Of a stretch of DNA of 21,637 nucleotides, positions 2,912 through 19,350 are shown piece after piece; position 1 is the stretch's first letter, and the number at the start of each line of letters is the position of its first letter. A program made the position numbers and the translations under genes. The stretch is from NCBI GenBank assembly GCA_016234975.1, contig JACRND010000075.1:1-21637 (forward strand), given 5' to 3'. The notes below the pieces were generated by a model. It saw only the letters and a list, made by a program, of their open reading frames with translations, had not been told where the DNA came from and did no database searches. Source of the DNA: Nitrosarchaeum sp. (GTDB lineage Archaea > Thermoproteota > Nitrososphaeria > Nitrososphaerales > Nitrosopumilaceae).

Positions 2912-3457
2912 TTATTTTTTTTTAATTAATAATGTATTTTGAACTTCATGAAAACTGTTGATGAATTTTTGTTTTGCTTCAAATTCATCTTTTACAGCTA
3001 TTACGATTTCAGTTGGGGACAGCATCACATCTTTTACAACCAGCGGGGAGCTTAGACCCAAGATTTCACACAAAATATCAAAAACATTTTTGAATTTTGC
3101 ACCATTTCTATATTTGTAGACAGTATTTCCATCTATTATTTTTGGATTTTCTTCAAGTGGAATAATCAAATTTGGAGAACTGACTTCAGAGATAAAAACA
3201 TCAGTGTCTTTGGCAACAGAAACTTTCAGGTCTGTTTTTGTTCTTTCCAGTTGTTCTTTTACCTTTTCAAGTTCAGCAAGTTTATCATCATATCCAACGC
3301 CAATCATTTTTGCAAATGTTGATTCAGTTGAGCGTTTTAGAGGTATTTCACGCAGTTTTATATTCACATCAGACAAAGCATCTTCTATATCATACAGTTT
3401 TGACCGGTTTTCTTTGATTTGGATGGCAAGATTTTCAAGAAATTCAAAATCAGACAT
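2912..3457 (-). CDS. Coiled-coil protein of unknown family, co-transcribed with artubulin
   Basis: A 181-aa soluble protein; I do not recognise its family. Residues 1-40 and 57-82 are charged and heptad-like (e.g. LAELEKVKEQLERTKTDLK), predicting two helical coiled-coil segments split by a short Gly-containing link near residues 52-57. From about residue 85 the character changes to a compact alpha/beta domain with hydrophobic strands (SSPNLIIPL, NTVYKY, TEIVIAVKDEFEAKQKF) and a basic end (LIKKK). There is no signal peptide or membrane segment. Its ATG lies 4 nt after the artubulin stop codon, so the two are almost certainly on one message and made together. By position a role as partner, adaptor or regulator of the tubulin-like filament is reasonable, but this is inference only. 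Confidence 0.8.
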   Translation of the reverse strand: MSDFEFLENLAIQIKENRSKLYDIEDALSDVNIKLREIPLKRSTESTFAKMIGVGYDDKLAELEKVKEQLERTKTDLKVSVAKDTDVFISEVSSPNLIIPLEENPKIIDGNTVYKYRNGAKFKNVFDILCEILGLSSPLVVKDVMLSPTEIVIAVKDEFEAKQKFINSFHEVQNTLLIKKK

Positions 3458-3461
3458 ATCT

Positions 3462-4847
3462 TTAGCTGAATTGGTGGATTACATCCATCAGACCCTGTTT
3501 AAATTCTTCAGTTGAAAGTCCCCATCGCCCATATTCATCTTTATAACCATCCCATGCCTCTTCTGCTTCTTTTGCAATCTCCAGAATCTTAGGTCCAATT
3601 GCCTTAGTGTTTACAAGAACCGCAATACTTGCTTGTTCTCCTTCCATTATGGGTATTTTTACAAAGATCATTCTAGATTCTTCAATGTTGAATTTGTCTT
3701 TGATGATTCTTTTAATTGACTCTCGTTCTTTGATGTCAAATTCTCCTTTCACTTTAACTAAAACACAACAAGAATCACGAGAACCACCATTGTTTCTAAC
3801 ATCATTTTCATCAATGTCAAAGAGTAACGCATCTTCTTTCTTACCAATTTTATTTAGAACGTCTTCCATTGTATTGTTTTTAGTTGATGTAAGCATATCT
3901 TTTCCCCATTGACTTTCAGATGGACTGACAGGCATAATCCAAGGAACTGCAAATTTTGGTTTTTTTGTTGCAAGCCATGTACGATAATTAGACATATCCC
4001 ATTCAGTTTCTCTTGCAAATGATGAGATAAACATAGAAATTGTATTGGCAGCTATCAAGTTCATTCCTTTGTAATCTTTCCATCCTACTTCATGTTCTTT
4101 TGGCAGATCATCTATTATGGAAGGAATTTTTTGTAATTTCTTTTCATGTTGGTGTGCAAGTTGTCTCAATGCCTTATTGGAAATTAAAATGGAGCAATCA
4201 CTGTATTTTATTTGGTATTCCAAGTTCATCACTATGTTAATTGCAGCTGCTTCAAAAATTACTGGATCCCAACCAAATTCAGGAAGTAATCCAAAAGTTG
4301 CAATAGTTGCATGTTCTTTTGTATCATTTTTTATGTATTCAATAAATGCACTTGAAAACGAGCTTCCGGTTCCACCACCCATGGCAAATGGAACCACGTA
4401 TCCCCTTACAGGTTCTGGAGAAATAGCAGATAATTGTTTTTTGATATCGACTTTAGTCCTCATCTCTTCTAAAAATCTCGTTTTTCCTTCCGCCCAGTTT
4501 CTTGCGGCCCCTCCTGCTCCATGAATTACATGCTGATCACGTAATGCAAAAAGGTCAGGGTATGATTGCAAAATAAGATTAGCTGCCCTTGGATCTAGGT
4601 CAACAAGTAGTGCTCTTGGGATAAGCGGAATATTTCCAGCGCCATAAGAAGGAGAAAATCTCAAAATGGTACTACCGTATCTTTTTAAGACACGTGACTC
4701 ATCTTTTGGATTTAGTGTTGGTTTTAACGGATCTGCTCCAACATCTAACAATAATCTTCGATATGATTCCGCCCCTAATCCAATACCACAATGACCAAAG
4801 CATATCATCAAGACAGGTGCTGGTGGAAGAGGAGCTAATTTTGACAT
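3462..4847 (-). CDS. Artubulin: archaeal tubulin-family GTPase
   Basis: A 461-aa tubulin-superfamily protein, closer to eukaryotic tubulin than to FtsZ or CetZ by motif style and length (tubulins are about 450 aa). Visible motifs: FGHCGIGLGAESYRRL at residues 17-32, matching the tubulin GQCGNQIG T1 region; PRALLVDLDP at 77-86 (T3, tubulin PRAVxVDLEP); GAGGAARNWAEG at 110-121, like the tubulin GxxNNxAxG segment; the signature GGGTGSS at 157-163 (T4, phosphate-binding); and ISNKAL at 222-227, where tubulin has the nucleotide-base contact IDNEAL. The T7 loop, which in tubulin carries N-x-D-x-x-E, seems to be MNLIAAN near residue 262, without the Asp. The C-terminus lacks the acidic tail of alpha/beta tubulin. 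Known family: artubulins were described in Nitrosoarchaeum. Neighbours are an ESCRT-III-like gene upstream and a coiled-coil gene 4 nt downstream. Expected role: GTP-dependent filament in the cytoplasm; its cellular job is unknown. Confidence 0.92.
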   Translation of the reverse strand: MSKLAPLPPAPVLMICFGHCGIGLGAESYRRLLLDVGADPLKPTLNPKDESRVLKRYGSTILRFSPSYGAGNIPLIPRALLVDLDPRAANLILQSYPDLFALRDQHVIHGAGGAARNWAEGKTRFLEEMRTKVDIKKQLSAISPEPVRGYVVPFAMGGGTGSSFSSAFIEYIKNDTKEHATIATFGLLPEFGWDPVIFEAAAINIVMNLEYQIKYSDCSILISNKALRQLAHQHEKKLQKIPSIIDDLPKEHEVGWKDYKGMNLIAANTISMFISSFARETEWDMSNYRTWLATKKPKFAVPWIMPVSPSESQWGKDMLTSTKNNTMEDVLNKIGKKEDALLFDIDENDVRNNGGSRDSCCVLVKVKGEFDIKERESIKRIIKDKFNIEESRMIFVKIPIMEGEQASIAVLVNTKAIGPKILEIAKEAEEAWDGYKDEYGRWGLSTEEFKQGLMDVIHQFS

Positions 4848-4975
4848 GACAACATCTTAACCTATACCCATAACACGCTGCTCATTAATAAGAGAGTAGA
4901 AGAAATTATACCAACCATATCGCATTCGAATATTTTTGGACTTAAAAATAGATTCTATGATGAATGAATATTTGA

Positions 4976-5599
4976 TTATTCCAATCCAATAGAGTTTGAT
5001 GAAGAGATTCCAGTTGGAGTTGATGGGAATTTGTCACCAATACGAGTTCCAGCTACTGCTGCTGCCTCTTTTAGTATACTTTCAGTTTCCTCATTAGATA
5101 CACCGTCAGATTCAAAGCTTCCTTCAAATGAGCCAGAAATTGATTCGTTGAGAATTCCAAATAGTGATTCAAACTCATGGCTTACTTCAGGCATGATTCT
5201 TCCCAAAGAGGGTTTTAATGCATTCATAGTTGCAAGAATTGGTCGTAGTGAAACCATTGCATCACCCAAATCTTGAACTGTTGACAATCTAAGATTAACT
5301 TGTTCTAATGATATTTTCAATGTGTTTAGTATTTTTTTATTTTTTTTTAATTCTACTAACTCATTTGCAAGTACTTTTCCAGTTGTTAAATCGTGGTTCT
5401 TTTTTGCCAATACAATTCTATTAAATAATTTTGTGTCTTTTTCGTCTAAGCTTTTTACTTTGTAATCAAGAGAAGATACTGTTTTATTTAATTGAACAAG
5501 AGAATTTTGAATTCTTGGTTTTAATGGTGCTTCTTTTTTTAGTCCGTGAAGATGATCTGAGAGTCCTTTTGATTGTGGGTTATTCCAGTTCTGTTGCAT
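4976..5599 (-). CDS. ESCRT-III / CdvB-like (Snf7 family) protein
   Basis: A 207-aa, highly helical charged protein that looks like the ESCRT-III core used in archaeal Cdv division and in eukaryotic membrane scission. The N-terminal stretch is basic (LKKEAPLKPRIQNS, residues 20-33), followed by a long helical hairpin. The second arm (KKNHDLTTGKVLANELVELKKNKK, about 66-89, with the usual A-N-E-L-V-E-L-K pattern) and a Met/Leu-rich part (VQDLGDAMVSLRPILATMNAL, 108-128) match CdvB proteins. An acidic helix follows at 167-182. The protein ends in a short Ser-rich tail with no room for the winged-helix CdvA-binding domain of canonical CdvB, so it is probably one of the paralogues that Thaumarchaeota carry. 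It is upstream of artubulin on the same strand with a 128-nt gap, and divergent from the dCMP deaminase. Expected site: inner face of the membrane. Confidence 0.82.
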   Translation of the reverse strand: MQQNWNNPQSKGLSDHLHGLKKEAPLKPRIQNSLVQLNKTVSSLDYKVKSLDEKDTKLFNRIVLAKKNHDLTTGKVLANELVELKKNKKILNTLKISLEQVNLRLSTVQDLGDAMVSLRPILATMNALKPSLGRIMPEVSHEFESLFGILNESISGSFEGSFESDGVSNEETESILKEAAAVAGTRIGDKFPSTPTGISSSNSIGLE

Positions 5600-6287: not shown

Positions 6288-8762
6288 ATGCAGATTAACG
6301 TTAAAGAAACAGAAAAGATCACATCAATGCCGCCATCAATGTTAGTATCTGCAGCATATGACAACATAACAAGAACTGCAGTGTTAAAATTCTACGAACC
6401 AACATCACAGAAATTAATTTTATGGCATGATGAAACGGGACACAAACCATACTGCTACTCCAGACTATCGCCAGACGAATTGGACTTTCTGCAAGAAAGA
6501 GATGATATTTTAGAAATTAAAACAGTGAAACGTCATGATTTGATGAAAGACGAAGAAATCAACATGTCAAAGATTATAGTAGCAGATCCGCTTACAATTG
6601 GAGGAACTACTGGAGACAAAAGCATCAGAAACATAATTGAGACATGGGAATCAGATATCAAATATTATGAAAATTATCTTTACGATAGATCACTAATTGT
6701 TGGAAAATATTATGAAATAGTGGACGGAAAAATAAAACCCCATGATTTAGAAATAGCAGACGAGGTTAATTTCAAATTGGGCAGATTTACTGAATCAGCC
6801 AATTCCCAGAATCAAAAGATTGAGCATAGACATTGAAGTCGAGGCAGAAATTGGTAGAATTCCAGACCCAAAGATTGCAGAAAAAAAAGTAACTGCGATT
6901 GGACTAAAGGGAACAGATGGTTTTGATCAAATTTTCGTGCTAAGAACAGAAGGTACTGATGTGGGAACAAATGAGCTTGGACAGAACATCAAGATTGCAT
7001 TTTATGATCAGAGTAAAGAAAAAGAGATGATTTTAGATGCGTTTAAAATAATTGAAGAATTTCCTTTTGTGGTAACATACAACGGCGATGAGTTTGATTT
7101 ACCATATTTGTTTAACAGAGCAGAAAGACTTGGGATAAAAAATGAAAACAACCCATTATACATGATGAAGGATTCTGCCACGCTAAAACACGGAGTACAT
7201 CTTGATTTGTACAGAACACTTTCAAATCGTTCATTTCAGATTTATGCATTTAGCCAAAAGTATACAGATTTTTAATTAAACAGTGTATCAAAGGCACTTT
7301 TAAACAAAGAAAAAATAGATTATGGTTTGGAGTTTGATCAGCTCAGTCTATATCAAATTGCAAATTATTGTTACAATGATGCGTTACTAACATATGAGCT
7401 TACAAGTTTCAACAAAGATCTTTTGATCTTGTGATCATTGCCAGAATTGGGAGAATGCCAATCGATGACATTGCAAGAATGGGTGTATCGCAGTGGATTA
7501 GGAGTCTACTGTATTATGAACACAGACAAAGAAATGCATTGATTCCAAAAAGAGAAGAACTCGAGAGAAGATCAGAGGGAGTATCATCAGATGCGGTAAT
7601 CAAAGATAAAAAATATCGAGGAGGACTAGTCATAGATCCAAAAGAAGGGATTCATTTCGATGTAGTTGTGATGGATTTTGCAAGTCTATACCCAAGTATC
7701 ATAAAAGTGAGAAACATATCATATGAGACAGTAAGATGCTCTCATGAGGAATGTAAGAAAAATACCATACCTCAGACAAACCATTGGGCATGCACAAAAA
7801 GAAACGGGCTAACAGCAATAATTATTGGATCACTGCGAGATTTGAGGGTAACTTACTACAAAAGTCTCTCAAAAAAAGAGACCTTGACAGAAGAACAGAG
7901 GCAGCAATACACAGTAGTCAGCCAAGCACTCAAGGTAATCCTAAATGCCAGTTATGGAGTAATGGGTGCCGAGATTTTCCCATTGTATTTTCTTCCAGCA
8001 GCAGAGGCAACAACTGCCATTGGAAGATTCACGATTTTAGAAACTATCAAAAAATGTGAAGCAATAGGAATCGAAGTTCTTTATGGCGACACAGATTCAT
8101 TATTTATCAAAAAACCTACAGATGAGCAAATACATACAGTGATAGAGCAAGCAAAAAAAGAACATGGAGTAGATTTAGAGATTGACAAGGTTTACAGATA
8201 TTGTGTATTAAGTAATAGAAAGAAAAACTATCTGGGGGTAACCAAAGCAGGGACAGTAGACGTAAAAGGTTTGACTGGAAAAAAGTCACATACACCGCCA
8301 TTTATTAGAAAATTATTTTACGAGTTACTTGATGTATTATCCAAAGTTCAAACAGTTGCAGATTTTGAGCGAGCAAAAAAAGACATCACAGATAAAATTG
8401 CAATATGTGCAAAAAAAGTAGAAACAAAAGAGATACCATTGCAAGACTTGACATTTAATGTGATGATTAGCAAAGCACCGTCAGAATATGTCAAAACAGT
8501 TCCACAGCACATACGAGCAGCAAAATTACTCGAATCAATCAGAGAAGTAAAAAAAGGAGACAAGATATCATATGTTAAAATTTTAAACAAACCTGGAGTA
8601 AAACCAGTAGAGATGGCAAAAAAAGAAGAGATAGATTCAAAGAAATACATGGAGTTTATGGAATCTACATTGGATCAAATTACATCATCGATGGATTTAG
8701 ATTTTCAAACTATGTTAGGCAAACCAAAACAAACGGGATTAGACGAATTTTTTTGGAGTTAG
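6288..8762 (+). pseudogene. polB: Family-B DNA polymerase, broken by two frameshifts and one stop
   Basis: Together the three open pieces make a full-size family-B polymerase of about 825 codons. Exonuclease motifs: SIDIEVEAE (Exo I, near 6825), VTYNGDEFDLPYL (Exo II, near 7075) and YCYNDALLTYEL (Exo III, near 7365). Polymerase motifs: DFASLYPSII (motif A, near 7674), KVILNASYG (motif B, near 7935) and YGDTDS (motif C, near 8085). The C-terminus KQTGLDEFF is a good PCNA-binding PIP box. Lesions: a +1-type shift near 6795-6820, where the first frame leaves homology and the next picks it up at PIPRIKRLS; an in-frame TAA at 7273-7275 between YTDF and LNSVSKALL; and a -1-type shift near 7419-7431, before VIIARIGRMP. 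The two shifts cancel. All else is well conserved, so decay is recent or the sequence has errors. Thaumarchaeota also have PolD, so loss of PolB may be tolerable. A GTG at 7431 could start a polymerase-domain-only product. Confidence 0.85.
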
Positions 8763-16971: not shown

Positions 16972-19350
16972 TTATGATGTAAATTCTTTTCTCATTCTAC
17001 GCAAGAATTTGGAATTTATTCTGATTCGTTCAAGAGTTTGCTCTTGTGTTCTTTCAGTACCAGGCGTTGGATTCTTTTTGAAAAATTGGCGAATCTCTTT
17101 TTCCATAGAGTCATCTGCAATAGAAGAGATGCTTGCAATAATTCTATTAAACAAAGGATTTCCACGACCAACTTTCTTACTAAGTTTTGGCCAGTTAGTC
17201 TTAAGCCAAGGCCATAGAATTTTTTTACCGTATGGATTTGCGGCAACTTTCATGATTGGCAGCTGCATGTTTTGAGAGCGAACCTCTGGAGTTTGTGAGA
17301 AATTAAGTGACTTTAGCAATAGCTTTTCATCTTTGAAACTACACATTGCCCCAAGGAAACGGAGTTTTTCTTCCATTGTTTTTGCATTTCTGTAGAGTTT
17401 GGTTAGTTCTTCATGTGTTTTGGAATTTCCATTCCATGCCATAACAGAACAAACAGGCTCAACTAAATCAGGAGACAATGAGTGTGGATTTTTTAAGAAT
17501 TGCTTGTATCTGTTTTCTGATTCAATTGTAACTTCATCATCACCTAATTTACCCAGTGTAAAAATTGCAAATGCCCTCATCAGAGCATCAGTGTGTTTGT
17601 CTGTTTTTTTAGGATTCCATCCCAAGTCATACAAAATTTTCTTGAGATAGTTCGTGGCATAATTGTGAATTTCCGCAGAGAATTCTTCATCGAATGCTCT
17701 AAAATACAATGAAGATAAGTTGTGTGCAACATTTACAGATGCCAAATAGCTGTCTTCATCATAGTACGCATCAGAAAAATCAAGATAATTACGAACGGTC
17801 TCATCACCGGATATGCATAATGAAAACAAATCATTTTGAATTGCCCACCTATCAATTGGTGGAATTTGTTTTTGATCTACAAGCATTTTTAGATCGAGCA
17901 GAGTTCCCTCATCGTATTTTACGCGATAGAATCCTTTTCTTCCAAAATTTGCTACAAATCCAATACTATCTTTAGGTAATTTTACAGACATTGATTTTTT
18001 TGTAAAGAGTTTCTGGAACAACTCATCTTTTAGTCCCACGGAAAGAGGAATGGACCACAGATCTTTGTTTGATTTTTTATCAGATTCCAGCATGTAACGT
18101 CTTTGCTTGAGATGTAATGTAGAATCTTGTTTTTCTATTTCGACTACTTATCGCTTTAATCCTTTTTGAAAATTTGATTCGCCAACATAATGTTCCAACA
18201 TTCTTAAAACACATCCCCCTTTATCATATGAGATAGCATCAAATATTTCACGTATTTCAGATGTAGAATTTACTTTGACGTCAATTGGGTGTGTGTTTTT
18301 TAACGAATCCAACCCCATTGCAGTGTTCATCGCATCTTCGACAAATTGATTCCACAAGTCCCATTCAGGATAGAATTTATCAACAAACTTTGTTGCCATA
18401 AATGTTGCAAAGCTCTCATTTAGCCACAGATCATTCCACCATTTCATGGTAACAAGATTTCCAAACCACTGGTGTGCAATCTCATGGGATATGACTTCGG
18501 CGATGTATTGCTTGGTTCTAGTTGAAGATGTCTTTGGATCATAAAGTAAAATGGTTTCTCTAAATGTTATTGCTCCCCAGTTTTCCATTGCACCTGAAGC
18601 AAAATCAGGAATTGCTATCAAATCTAATTTAGGCAAAGGGTATTTTATTCCAAAATATTTCTCATATGACAAAAGTAGTTTCTTTCCAAGTTCAAGTGAA
18701 TACTTGCCCTTTGATTTATTTCCCTTTGTCGTAATTACGCGAACTTGGATTTTACCAATCTTACCTGTAAGATATTCAAACTCACCTACACCAAGATAGA
18801 GAAGATATGTAGACATTACAGGAGTTTTTGCAAATTTGTACAGAGTTTTATTTTTTATTCTCCTTTTTGATGTAATTGGCATATTAGAAATTGCAGTGAA
18901 CGTATTTTCGGCAATTATGGAAATATCAAATGTTGCCTTGGCTTCTGGCTCATCCCAGCATGGAAATGCTCTTCTTGTGTCAGCCGCTTCAAATTGCGAT
19001 GTTGCAAGATATTTTGTCTTGCCATTTTGTTTGTATTGACTTCGGTAGAACCCAAGTAGACGATCATTTAATTCTCCAGTAAATTCAATTTCAATAAAGG
19101 CATCACCTTTGATTTTGTTTTTAATGATAATTGTCATCTCTTCTTTTTTGACGTCAGTTTTAGTAACTGCCTTTTGGGATATTCCATTATGTATAATATG
19201 ACATGATTTTATTTTGAGTTCAGCGCAGTGCAGTGTAATTGAATTTACAGATTCCTTGCACTCAATAGTAATTGTCTCTTTTCCATTAAAGGTAAAATTT
19301 TTGAAAATAGGCTCAAATTCAAGCGCATAGTTTATTGGAATTACCTTCAT
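16972..19350 (-). pseudogene. M1-family zinc aminopeptidase with internal deletion and stop
   Basis: Two segments in one frame make an aminopeptidase N/tricorn-factor-type enzyme that removes N-terminal residues from peptides. Segment 1 (19350-18148, 400 aa) has the substrate motif GAMENWGA (253-260) and the zinc site HEIAHQWFGN...NE (His289, Glu290, His293, Glu312), then DKGGCVLRMLEHYVGESNFQ. It stops with TAA at 18148-18150 just after KGLKR. After the TAA the same frame continues as VVEIEKQDSTLHLKQRRYML and joins segment 2 (18093-16972, 373 aa), a normal HEAT-like C-terminal domain. In M1 enzymes some 45 residues, including the end of the catalytic domain, lie between 'F.KGL..Y' and the '(P)VVE.' strand; these are missing. 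So the junction is an in-frame-sized internal deletion with the TAA formed at the seam. The product of segment 1 alone would keep the zinc site but lose the support domain. An assembly join error is possible. Confidence 0.82.

Follow-up and report, generated by a model that had tools for sequence, protein, structure and literature searches.

The window analysed here, a stretch of 21,637 nucleotides (nt) from Nitrosarchaeum (contig C95 of genome G000, 78% complete), encodes an artubulin, a tubulin-family protein, between a paralogue of ESCRT-III and a coiled-coil protein of 181 amino acids (aa), here called CC. An earlier note on this DNA had described the three genes as neighbours on one strand. 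Open reading frame (ORF) calling agrees and places all of them on the minus strand, with CC starting 4 nt past the artubulin stop (3458-3461), as the note had stated. The features, all of which are discussed below, are as follows.

2912-3457, minus strand: CC, 181 aa, the constant downstream partner of artubulin; an ORF with a long helical hairpin and a C-terminal alpha/beta domain in its AlphaFold2 model
3462-4847, minus strand: artubulin, 461 aa, tubulin-family protein with a Pfam Tubulin match; a relative with 83% identity gives a model that aligns with whole tubulin chains
4879-4914, minus strand: conserved block TTGGTATAATTTCTTCTACTCTCTTATTAATGAGCA upstream of artubulin, found at 11 of 11 Nitrosarchaeum artubulin loci; probable promoter or operator of artubulin and CC
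4976-5599, minus strand: accessory ESCRT-III (CdvB-type) paralogue, 207 aa, assigned from Snf7 and CdvB1/B2 matches and a tree

The ESCRT-III stop and the artubulin start are 128 nt apart, and the conserved block lies within this gap. Operon-like spacing is thus limited to artubulin and CC.

Artubulin and its downstream neighbour

To place the locus in context, we surveyed a sample of 400 genomes drawn from the order Nitrososphaerales and inspected all 97 artubulin neighbourhoods found. These loci belong to 94 genomes of the families f1 (n = 68), f3 (n = 1), f10 (n = 22), and f13 (n = 3). A separate scan with organism names located artubulin, among the best 80 of 85 confirmed loci, in Nitrosarchaeum (the window's genus, labelled g1 in the survey), Nitrosotenuis (g2), Nitrosotalea (g8), a few Nitrosopumilus (g6), and relatives. 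CC lies directly downstream of artubulin on the same strand at 92 of the 97 loci, and at the remaining five the contigs stop 0, 1, 2, 45, and 139 bases past the artubulin frame; the contig with 139 bases (L045) still encodes the first 43 residues of CC. The gap between the two genes is 2-18 nt at 85 of the 92 loci, and the frames overlap at the other seven when the longest frames are read. A CC profile matched 138 of the 400 genomes, including all 94 that carry artubulin. ESCRT-III, by comparison, adjoins artubulin at only 11 loci, all of them in Nitrosarchaeum (10 genomes). Together with the CC remnants that are found in genomes lacking artubulin (see below), these counts identify the conserved unit as artubulin plus CC, a two-gene operon, and not a three-gene ESCRT module.

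Elsewhere, the gene preceding artubulin is most often a same-strand member of cluster F2 (33 loci), two scanned members of which give SHOCT and weak zinc-ribbon matches. Other preceding genes are Nre on the same strand (14 loci) and, at 18 loci, a divergently oriented gene that matches VWA. On the other side of the pair, a gene of ~312-325 aa (cluster F14) directly follows CC at 19 loci of family f10 (L105-L123); the one member scanned had no Pfam or NCBIfam match. Two assemblies contain paired artubulin-CC loci (L033 and L040 in G374, L094 and L095 in G002). Since G374 is 5% contaminated, a different strain may be the source of its second copy.

The artubulin of the window scores above the Pfam Tubulin cut-off (62.3 vs. 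33 bits), and the tubulin T1, T3, and T4 motifs noticed earlier are conserved across 89 artubulins of at least 440 aa. The T1 residues (G18, H19, G21, G23, G25, A26, and E27) and T3 (GGAARNWAEG) are invariant, and T4 (GGGTG) has one residue changed in a single sequence. Artubulin models as a full tubulin-fold protein: the model of the 83% identical relative, computed joined to CC, matches whole tubulin chains over 470-480 columns, with OdinTubulin as the best structural match (E 6.7e-18, TM-score 0.77 by target length). In alpha-tubulin, the catalytic glutamate of helix H8 is Glu254. The T7-H8 stretch RETEWDMSNYRTWL is nearly invariant across the 89 artubulins, and in a gapless alignment made by eye, covering a region that the sequence searches do not align, the Glu254 position is taken by asparagine (Asn287) in 88 of them and by serine in one. 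This replacement suggests that GTP hydrolysis by artubulin may be unusual; the nearby residues E280, E282, and D284 could compensate.

Two upstream elements suggest that artubulin and CC may have their own promoter. In Nitrosarchaeum, the gap between ESCRT-III and artubulin ranges from 73 to 230 nt and is poorly conserved outside one block (4879-4914 in the window), which aligns with few changes across all 11 artubulin loci of the genus. A different element, TCTA[CT]AAC, precedes artubulin in 44 of 89 loci, mostly in Nitrosotenuis, the genus labelled g4, and Nitrosotalea, and is situated ~85-100 nt before the conserved start region of artubulin (L046, L069, L070, L083, and others). At many of these loci a micro-ORF (MS[IT]TIK...) can be read. 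As an in-frame stop interrupts it early in several of them, we rejected this candidate, and a DNA element is more likely.

Two further genes of the window, both named by reading, are split: a DNA polymerase-like gene over three ORFs (6288-8762) and an aminopeptidase-like gene over two (16972-19350). Frame errors in the draft assembly are the probable cause in both cases.

The ESCRT-III neighbour and the loss of artubulin

Judged by its sequence, the 207-aa protein is an accessory ESCRT-III paralogue of part of family f1. It exceeds the Pfam Snf7 cut-off (31.6 vs. 27.3 bits) and aligns over residues 2-200 with the NCBIfam CdvB1/B2 model (NF041005, E 4.6e-41), which upholds its earlier identification as ESCRT-III. 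It misses the equivalog cut-off of this model (140.6 vs. 350 bits), as does a core ESCRT-III paralogue of the same genome (165.1 bits). The earlier note had also remarked on the missing winged-helix tail, and indeed the match to the CdvB model stops at profile position 195 of 260, with no C-terminal extension. This lack is usual, because no thaumarchaeal CdvB protein carries a fused winged helix according to the available text of PMC10936438. In a tree of 50 proteins, the Nitrosarchaeum gene (17 rows, support 100/100) falls within an accessory clade of 29 rows (100/100) that also holds genes of g3, g5, and Nitrosopumilus at other loci.

Some observations on related genes may be added here. In two Nitrosopumilus genomes (L145, L146), an accessory ESCRT-III gene and an MscS-type gene are arranged head to head; the MscS gene of Nitrosarchaeum is located downstream of CC, or downstream of ESCRT-III in genomes that have lost artubulin. 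A small divergent ESCRT-III-like ORF (L320:1603-2166) occurs two genes before a cdvC-type ATPase gene and matches the ESCRT-III profile with an E of 1e-8, and comparable ORFs (L321:1818-2381, L322:2621-3178, and L323:1514-2074) reach an E of only 0.0007-0.005.

Within Nitrosarchaeum, the ESCRT-III orthologue (at least 84% identity) is present in 16 of 17 genomes, the exception being 61% complete, and artubulin in 10 of the 17. The six genomes with ESCRT-III and without artubulin have ESCRT-III at the same place, adjoining the dCMP deaminase gene. In five of them MscS comes next, separated from ESCRT-III by no more than one small ORF on the opposite strand; the contig of the sixth stops here. 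Five of the six gave no match to an artubulin profile; the remaining one (G324) was covered by the survey search only. One of these genomes, G220, retains a decayed CC downstream of an intact ESCRT-III gene (91%): 683 bases align at 73.5% nucleotide identity and contain a frame break and a stop, and no artubulin lies in this gap. Because of this remnant, a gain of artubulin by insertion beside ESCRT-III is rejected for G220, and for G220 only. For the other five genomes, we infer a loss of artubulin from the ESCRT-III tree, in which the artubulin-less genomes fall at a minimum of two and probably three positions, namely a clade of four (100/99), G220 together with the artubulin-bearing G222 (98/98), and G141 without a supported place. 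CC remnants with stops or frame breaks also occur in G183 and G013, and the artubulin profile finds nothing in any of the three genomes with remnants. Thus, CC is decayed in three artubulin-less genomes, whereas ESCRT-III is not decayed in artubulin-less Nitrosarchaeum. Its median ratio of nonsynonymous to synonymous substitution rates (dN/dS) is 0.101 among artubulin-less genomes (15 pairs) vs. 0.085 among artubulin-bearing ones (55 pairs); the values for artubulin and CC are 0.025 and 0.077, respectively.

The expectation raised in the earlier note that the three genes occur and vanish together is therefore not borne out: they stand together at 11 of 97 artubulin loci, in one genus, and ESCRT-III persists there in six genomes without artubulin. 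Of its broader proposal that the three proteins act together, the artubulin-CC part receives strong support from the survey (92 of 97 loci, 94 of 94 genomes) and the ESCRT-III part does not (11 of 97). Beyond Nitrosarchaeum, where we counted an accessory ESCRT-III match below an E of 3e-52 (a threshold of our own), 23 genomes have such a match and only four of these carry artubulin, out of 84 artubulin genomes. The accessory gene and artubulin are thus mostly apart outside the genus. A link between them is possible in some lineages, for example, within Nitrosarchaeum; of the four Nitrosopumilus artubulin genomes, three have an accessory-clade gene at a different locus.

These data also bear on two ways in which ESCRT-III might still be the partner of artubulin. 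In the first, artubulin, the ESCRT-III paralogue, and CC would form a three-gene module in Nitrosarchaeum, with two polymers and an adaptor acting at one membrane site. The three genes do stand in a row in 10 of 10 artubulin genomes of the genus (11 loci), the Nitrosopumilus genomes just mentioned carry the same accessory clade, and cooperation of artubulin with ESCRT-III has been predicted in print, as stated in the available text of PMC3349469. We nevertheless consider such a module quite improbable, given the few loci with an adjacent ESCRT-III gene, the six genomes that keep ESCRT-III at a low dN/dS without artubulin, the separate conserved block in the intervening 73-230 nt, and the four of 84 artubulin genomes among the 23 with a match outside the genus. 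In the second, artubulin and CC would cooperate with the shared core Cdv/ESCRT-III division machinery, whatever the gene order. At least three ESCRT-III matches were found in each of the 12 genomes searched, artubulin carriers included (four or five in the four Nitrosarchaeum genomes that are at least 97% complete, three in the artubulin genomes of Nitrosotenuis, Nitrosotalea, and family f10), and a relative divides by means of ESCRT-III, according to the same part of PMC3349469. However, these genomes have core ESCRT-III whether or not they carry artubulin, so that co-occurrence is uninformative, and we regard this explanation as unlikely, if slightly less so than the module.

CC and its possible role

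CC stays below every family cut-off in Pfam and NCBIfam. Its AlphaFold2 model (110 sequences) has a mean predicted local distance difference test score (pLDDT) of 92.5 and a predicted template modelling score (pTM) of 0.80. Two helices (residues 4-52 and 59-92) make up a hairpin (4-92), which is followed by the alpha/beta domain, and no solved structure matched at an E of 0.001 or better. The window's CC matches 232 proteins at an E of 0.001 (120 listed). An hhalign comparison of the alpha/beta domain with Pcc1 (KEOPS) gave a probability of <1%, a weak comparison, as small Pcc1-like control alignments reached only 47%. CC was also compared with arCOG08707, the coiled-coil protein encoded upstream of cdvC (PMC10936438). 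Two CC profiles run against all ORFs at eight cdvC-type loci (seven genomes) gave an E of 0.09 or worse, the arCOG08707 ORF at these loci being judged by position only.

The reading that we favour, and hold to be somewhat more probable than its alternatives combined, is that CC is a dedicated artubulin-binding regulator or anchor encoded in a conserved two-gene operon with artubulin, ESCRT-III being accessory. Artubulin would presumably bind GTP and assemble into filaments, the helical hairpin of CC would dock on artubulin or its filament, and the alpha/beta domain would dimerise or link to another cell component. CC could in this way control the assembly, bundling, or anchoring of artubulin, and the neighbouring ESCRT-III gene of Nitrosarchaeum would be an accessory CdvB paralogue that is kept without artubulin and CC. 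Small co-encoded partners are known for other tubulin-family polymers, namely BtubC, TubY, and ZapA, and by analogy CC would work like them. The data themselves show the gene linkage, the co-occurrence, the decay of CC in three artubulin-less genomes, the retention of ESCRT-III, and the folds as models; the physical binding of the two proteins, polymerisation, and the regulatory role are what we infer.

Several results weigh against this reading. The first comes from the structure modelling that the earlier note had envisaged for the artubulin-CC complex: the joined model, based on an alignment of 79 rows with 16 natural pairs, reached a pTM of 0.67 with a linker pLDDT of <50, and the five models had a mean pLDDT of 56.6-81.6, so that no contact between the two proteins is predicted confidently. 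All ten artubulin genomes of Nitrosarchaeum retain the ESCRT-III neighbour. In two Nitrosopumilus genomes, artubulin is reduced to its C-terminal 261 aa (L124:7921-8706, G295) and 171 aa (L126:3810-4325, G237) alongside an intact CC; both loci are well inside long contigs, and either real truncations or assembly faults may be the cause. Finally, CC has relatives in genomes lacking artubulin, which implies that it is not a tubulin-only protein and has or had another role. Besides the three genomes with remnants (G220, G183, and G013), the 44 CC-positive genomes without an artubulin match comprise six of family f2, 33 of family f8, and G027 and G142, where CC is at a contig end (the G142 contig starts within the last part of an artubulin). 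In the six f2 genomes and five of those from f8, a search with an artubulin profile gave no match. The f2 relatives (L228-L233, e.g. L228:9116-9766) are full length and sit just after a gene that was checked in one case as radical SAM, with an ORF of 93-110 aa following in five of six cases. Those of f8 are a short form (129-158 aa in the ten loci read) that keeps the alpha/beta domain and misses most of the hairpin (roughly residues 9-60); stops interrupt the CC match in four of the 33 genomes. An alpha/beta domain with a further partner would fit the presence of CC in these lineages. In 9 of 10 f8 loci (L234-L241, L246, and L247), a putative Emg1/Nep1-like gene, named by reading, adjoins CC or lies one gene further, and small ribosomal-protein-like genes are often nearby as well.

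A more specific version of the regulator reading, which we put forward as a tentative and rather doubtful idea, would have the hairpin bind artubulin filaments and, with asparagine in place of the catalytic glutamate, CC rather than ordinary GTP hydrolysis set filament turnover. The artubulin-less lineages keep the alpha/beta domain and one of them loses most of the hairpin, and on this view the hairpin would be the tubulin-facing part of CC. The artubulin-less relatives also bear on another role for CC, that of a folding or storage cofactor of artubulin and not a filament regulator. Tubulin cofactor A is such a protein for tubulin. In f2 and f8, a cofactor of this kind would have no client, and to our knowledge cofactor A has no counterpart to the alpha/beta domain of CC. 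Accordingly, there seems to be little chance that CC is a cofactor, and we retain the regulator or anchor as the preferred interpretation.

Comparison with published artubulins and other tubulin systems

Since 2012, artubulins have been considered possible relatives of the eukaryotic tubulin ancestor. Their phylogenetic position was never fully resolved, as stated in the accessible part of PMC13394414. Yutin and Koonin reported the adjacency of artubulin and ESCRT-III (Snf7) in 2012 and predicted their cooperation in division (PMC3349469, as far as its available text goes), and the idea of a joint tubulin and ESCRT-III system is thus not new. The legend of Figure 2B of that paper names a 'conserved hypothetical protein' among the artubulin neighbours, and this could be CC or a different protein. 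For Nitrosotenuis uzonensis, the relevant passage of PMC3835317 places artubulin away from any Snf7/CdvB gene, and the accessible sections of PMC9871819 repeat the Snf7 link and mention coiled-coil genes near archaeal tubulin-like genes in general. The literature searched, partly accessible and with subscription papers outside its scope, contained no account of CC as an artubulin partner, nor did we find a functional study of an artubulin in it.

The main published clue to artubulin has been its ESCRT-III neighbour. Here, this link is confined to one genus, and the companion gene of artubulin is CC. The pair offers concrete candidates for co-expression, binding, and imaging, and the results caution against reading an old tubulin-ESCRT partnership into the Nitrosarchaeum neighbourhood.

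The published artubulins of Nitrosarchaeum and Nitrosotenuis (PMC3349469 and PMC3835317, in the parts available) belong to the same family as the one described here, and that of Nitrosarchaeum has the same Snf7 neighbour. Whereas these accounts, in the text accessible, discuss Snf7, the constant neighbour in our survey is CC, and compared to them the carriers extend to Nitrosotalea, some Nitrosopumilus, and three further families. The 207-aa neighbour itself matches the CdvB1/B2 model (NF041005) over nearly its whole length, yet stays far below the equivalog cut-off. Among other tubulin systems, BtubA/B with BtubC is likewise a tubulin encoded with a small non-tubulin partner. In contrast to BtubC, which is a TPR protein according to the Figure 2B legend of PMC3349469, CC combines a helical hairpin with an alpha/beta domain and has no family match. 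Asgard tubulins are the best sequence matches of artubulin among solved structures, and OdinTubulin, its best structural match, has the tubulin fold in common with it at ~19% identity in the structural alignment. As reported in the available part of PMC9871819, homologues of the two genes flanking OdinTubulin do not occur elsewhere, whereas CC represents a wide family.

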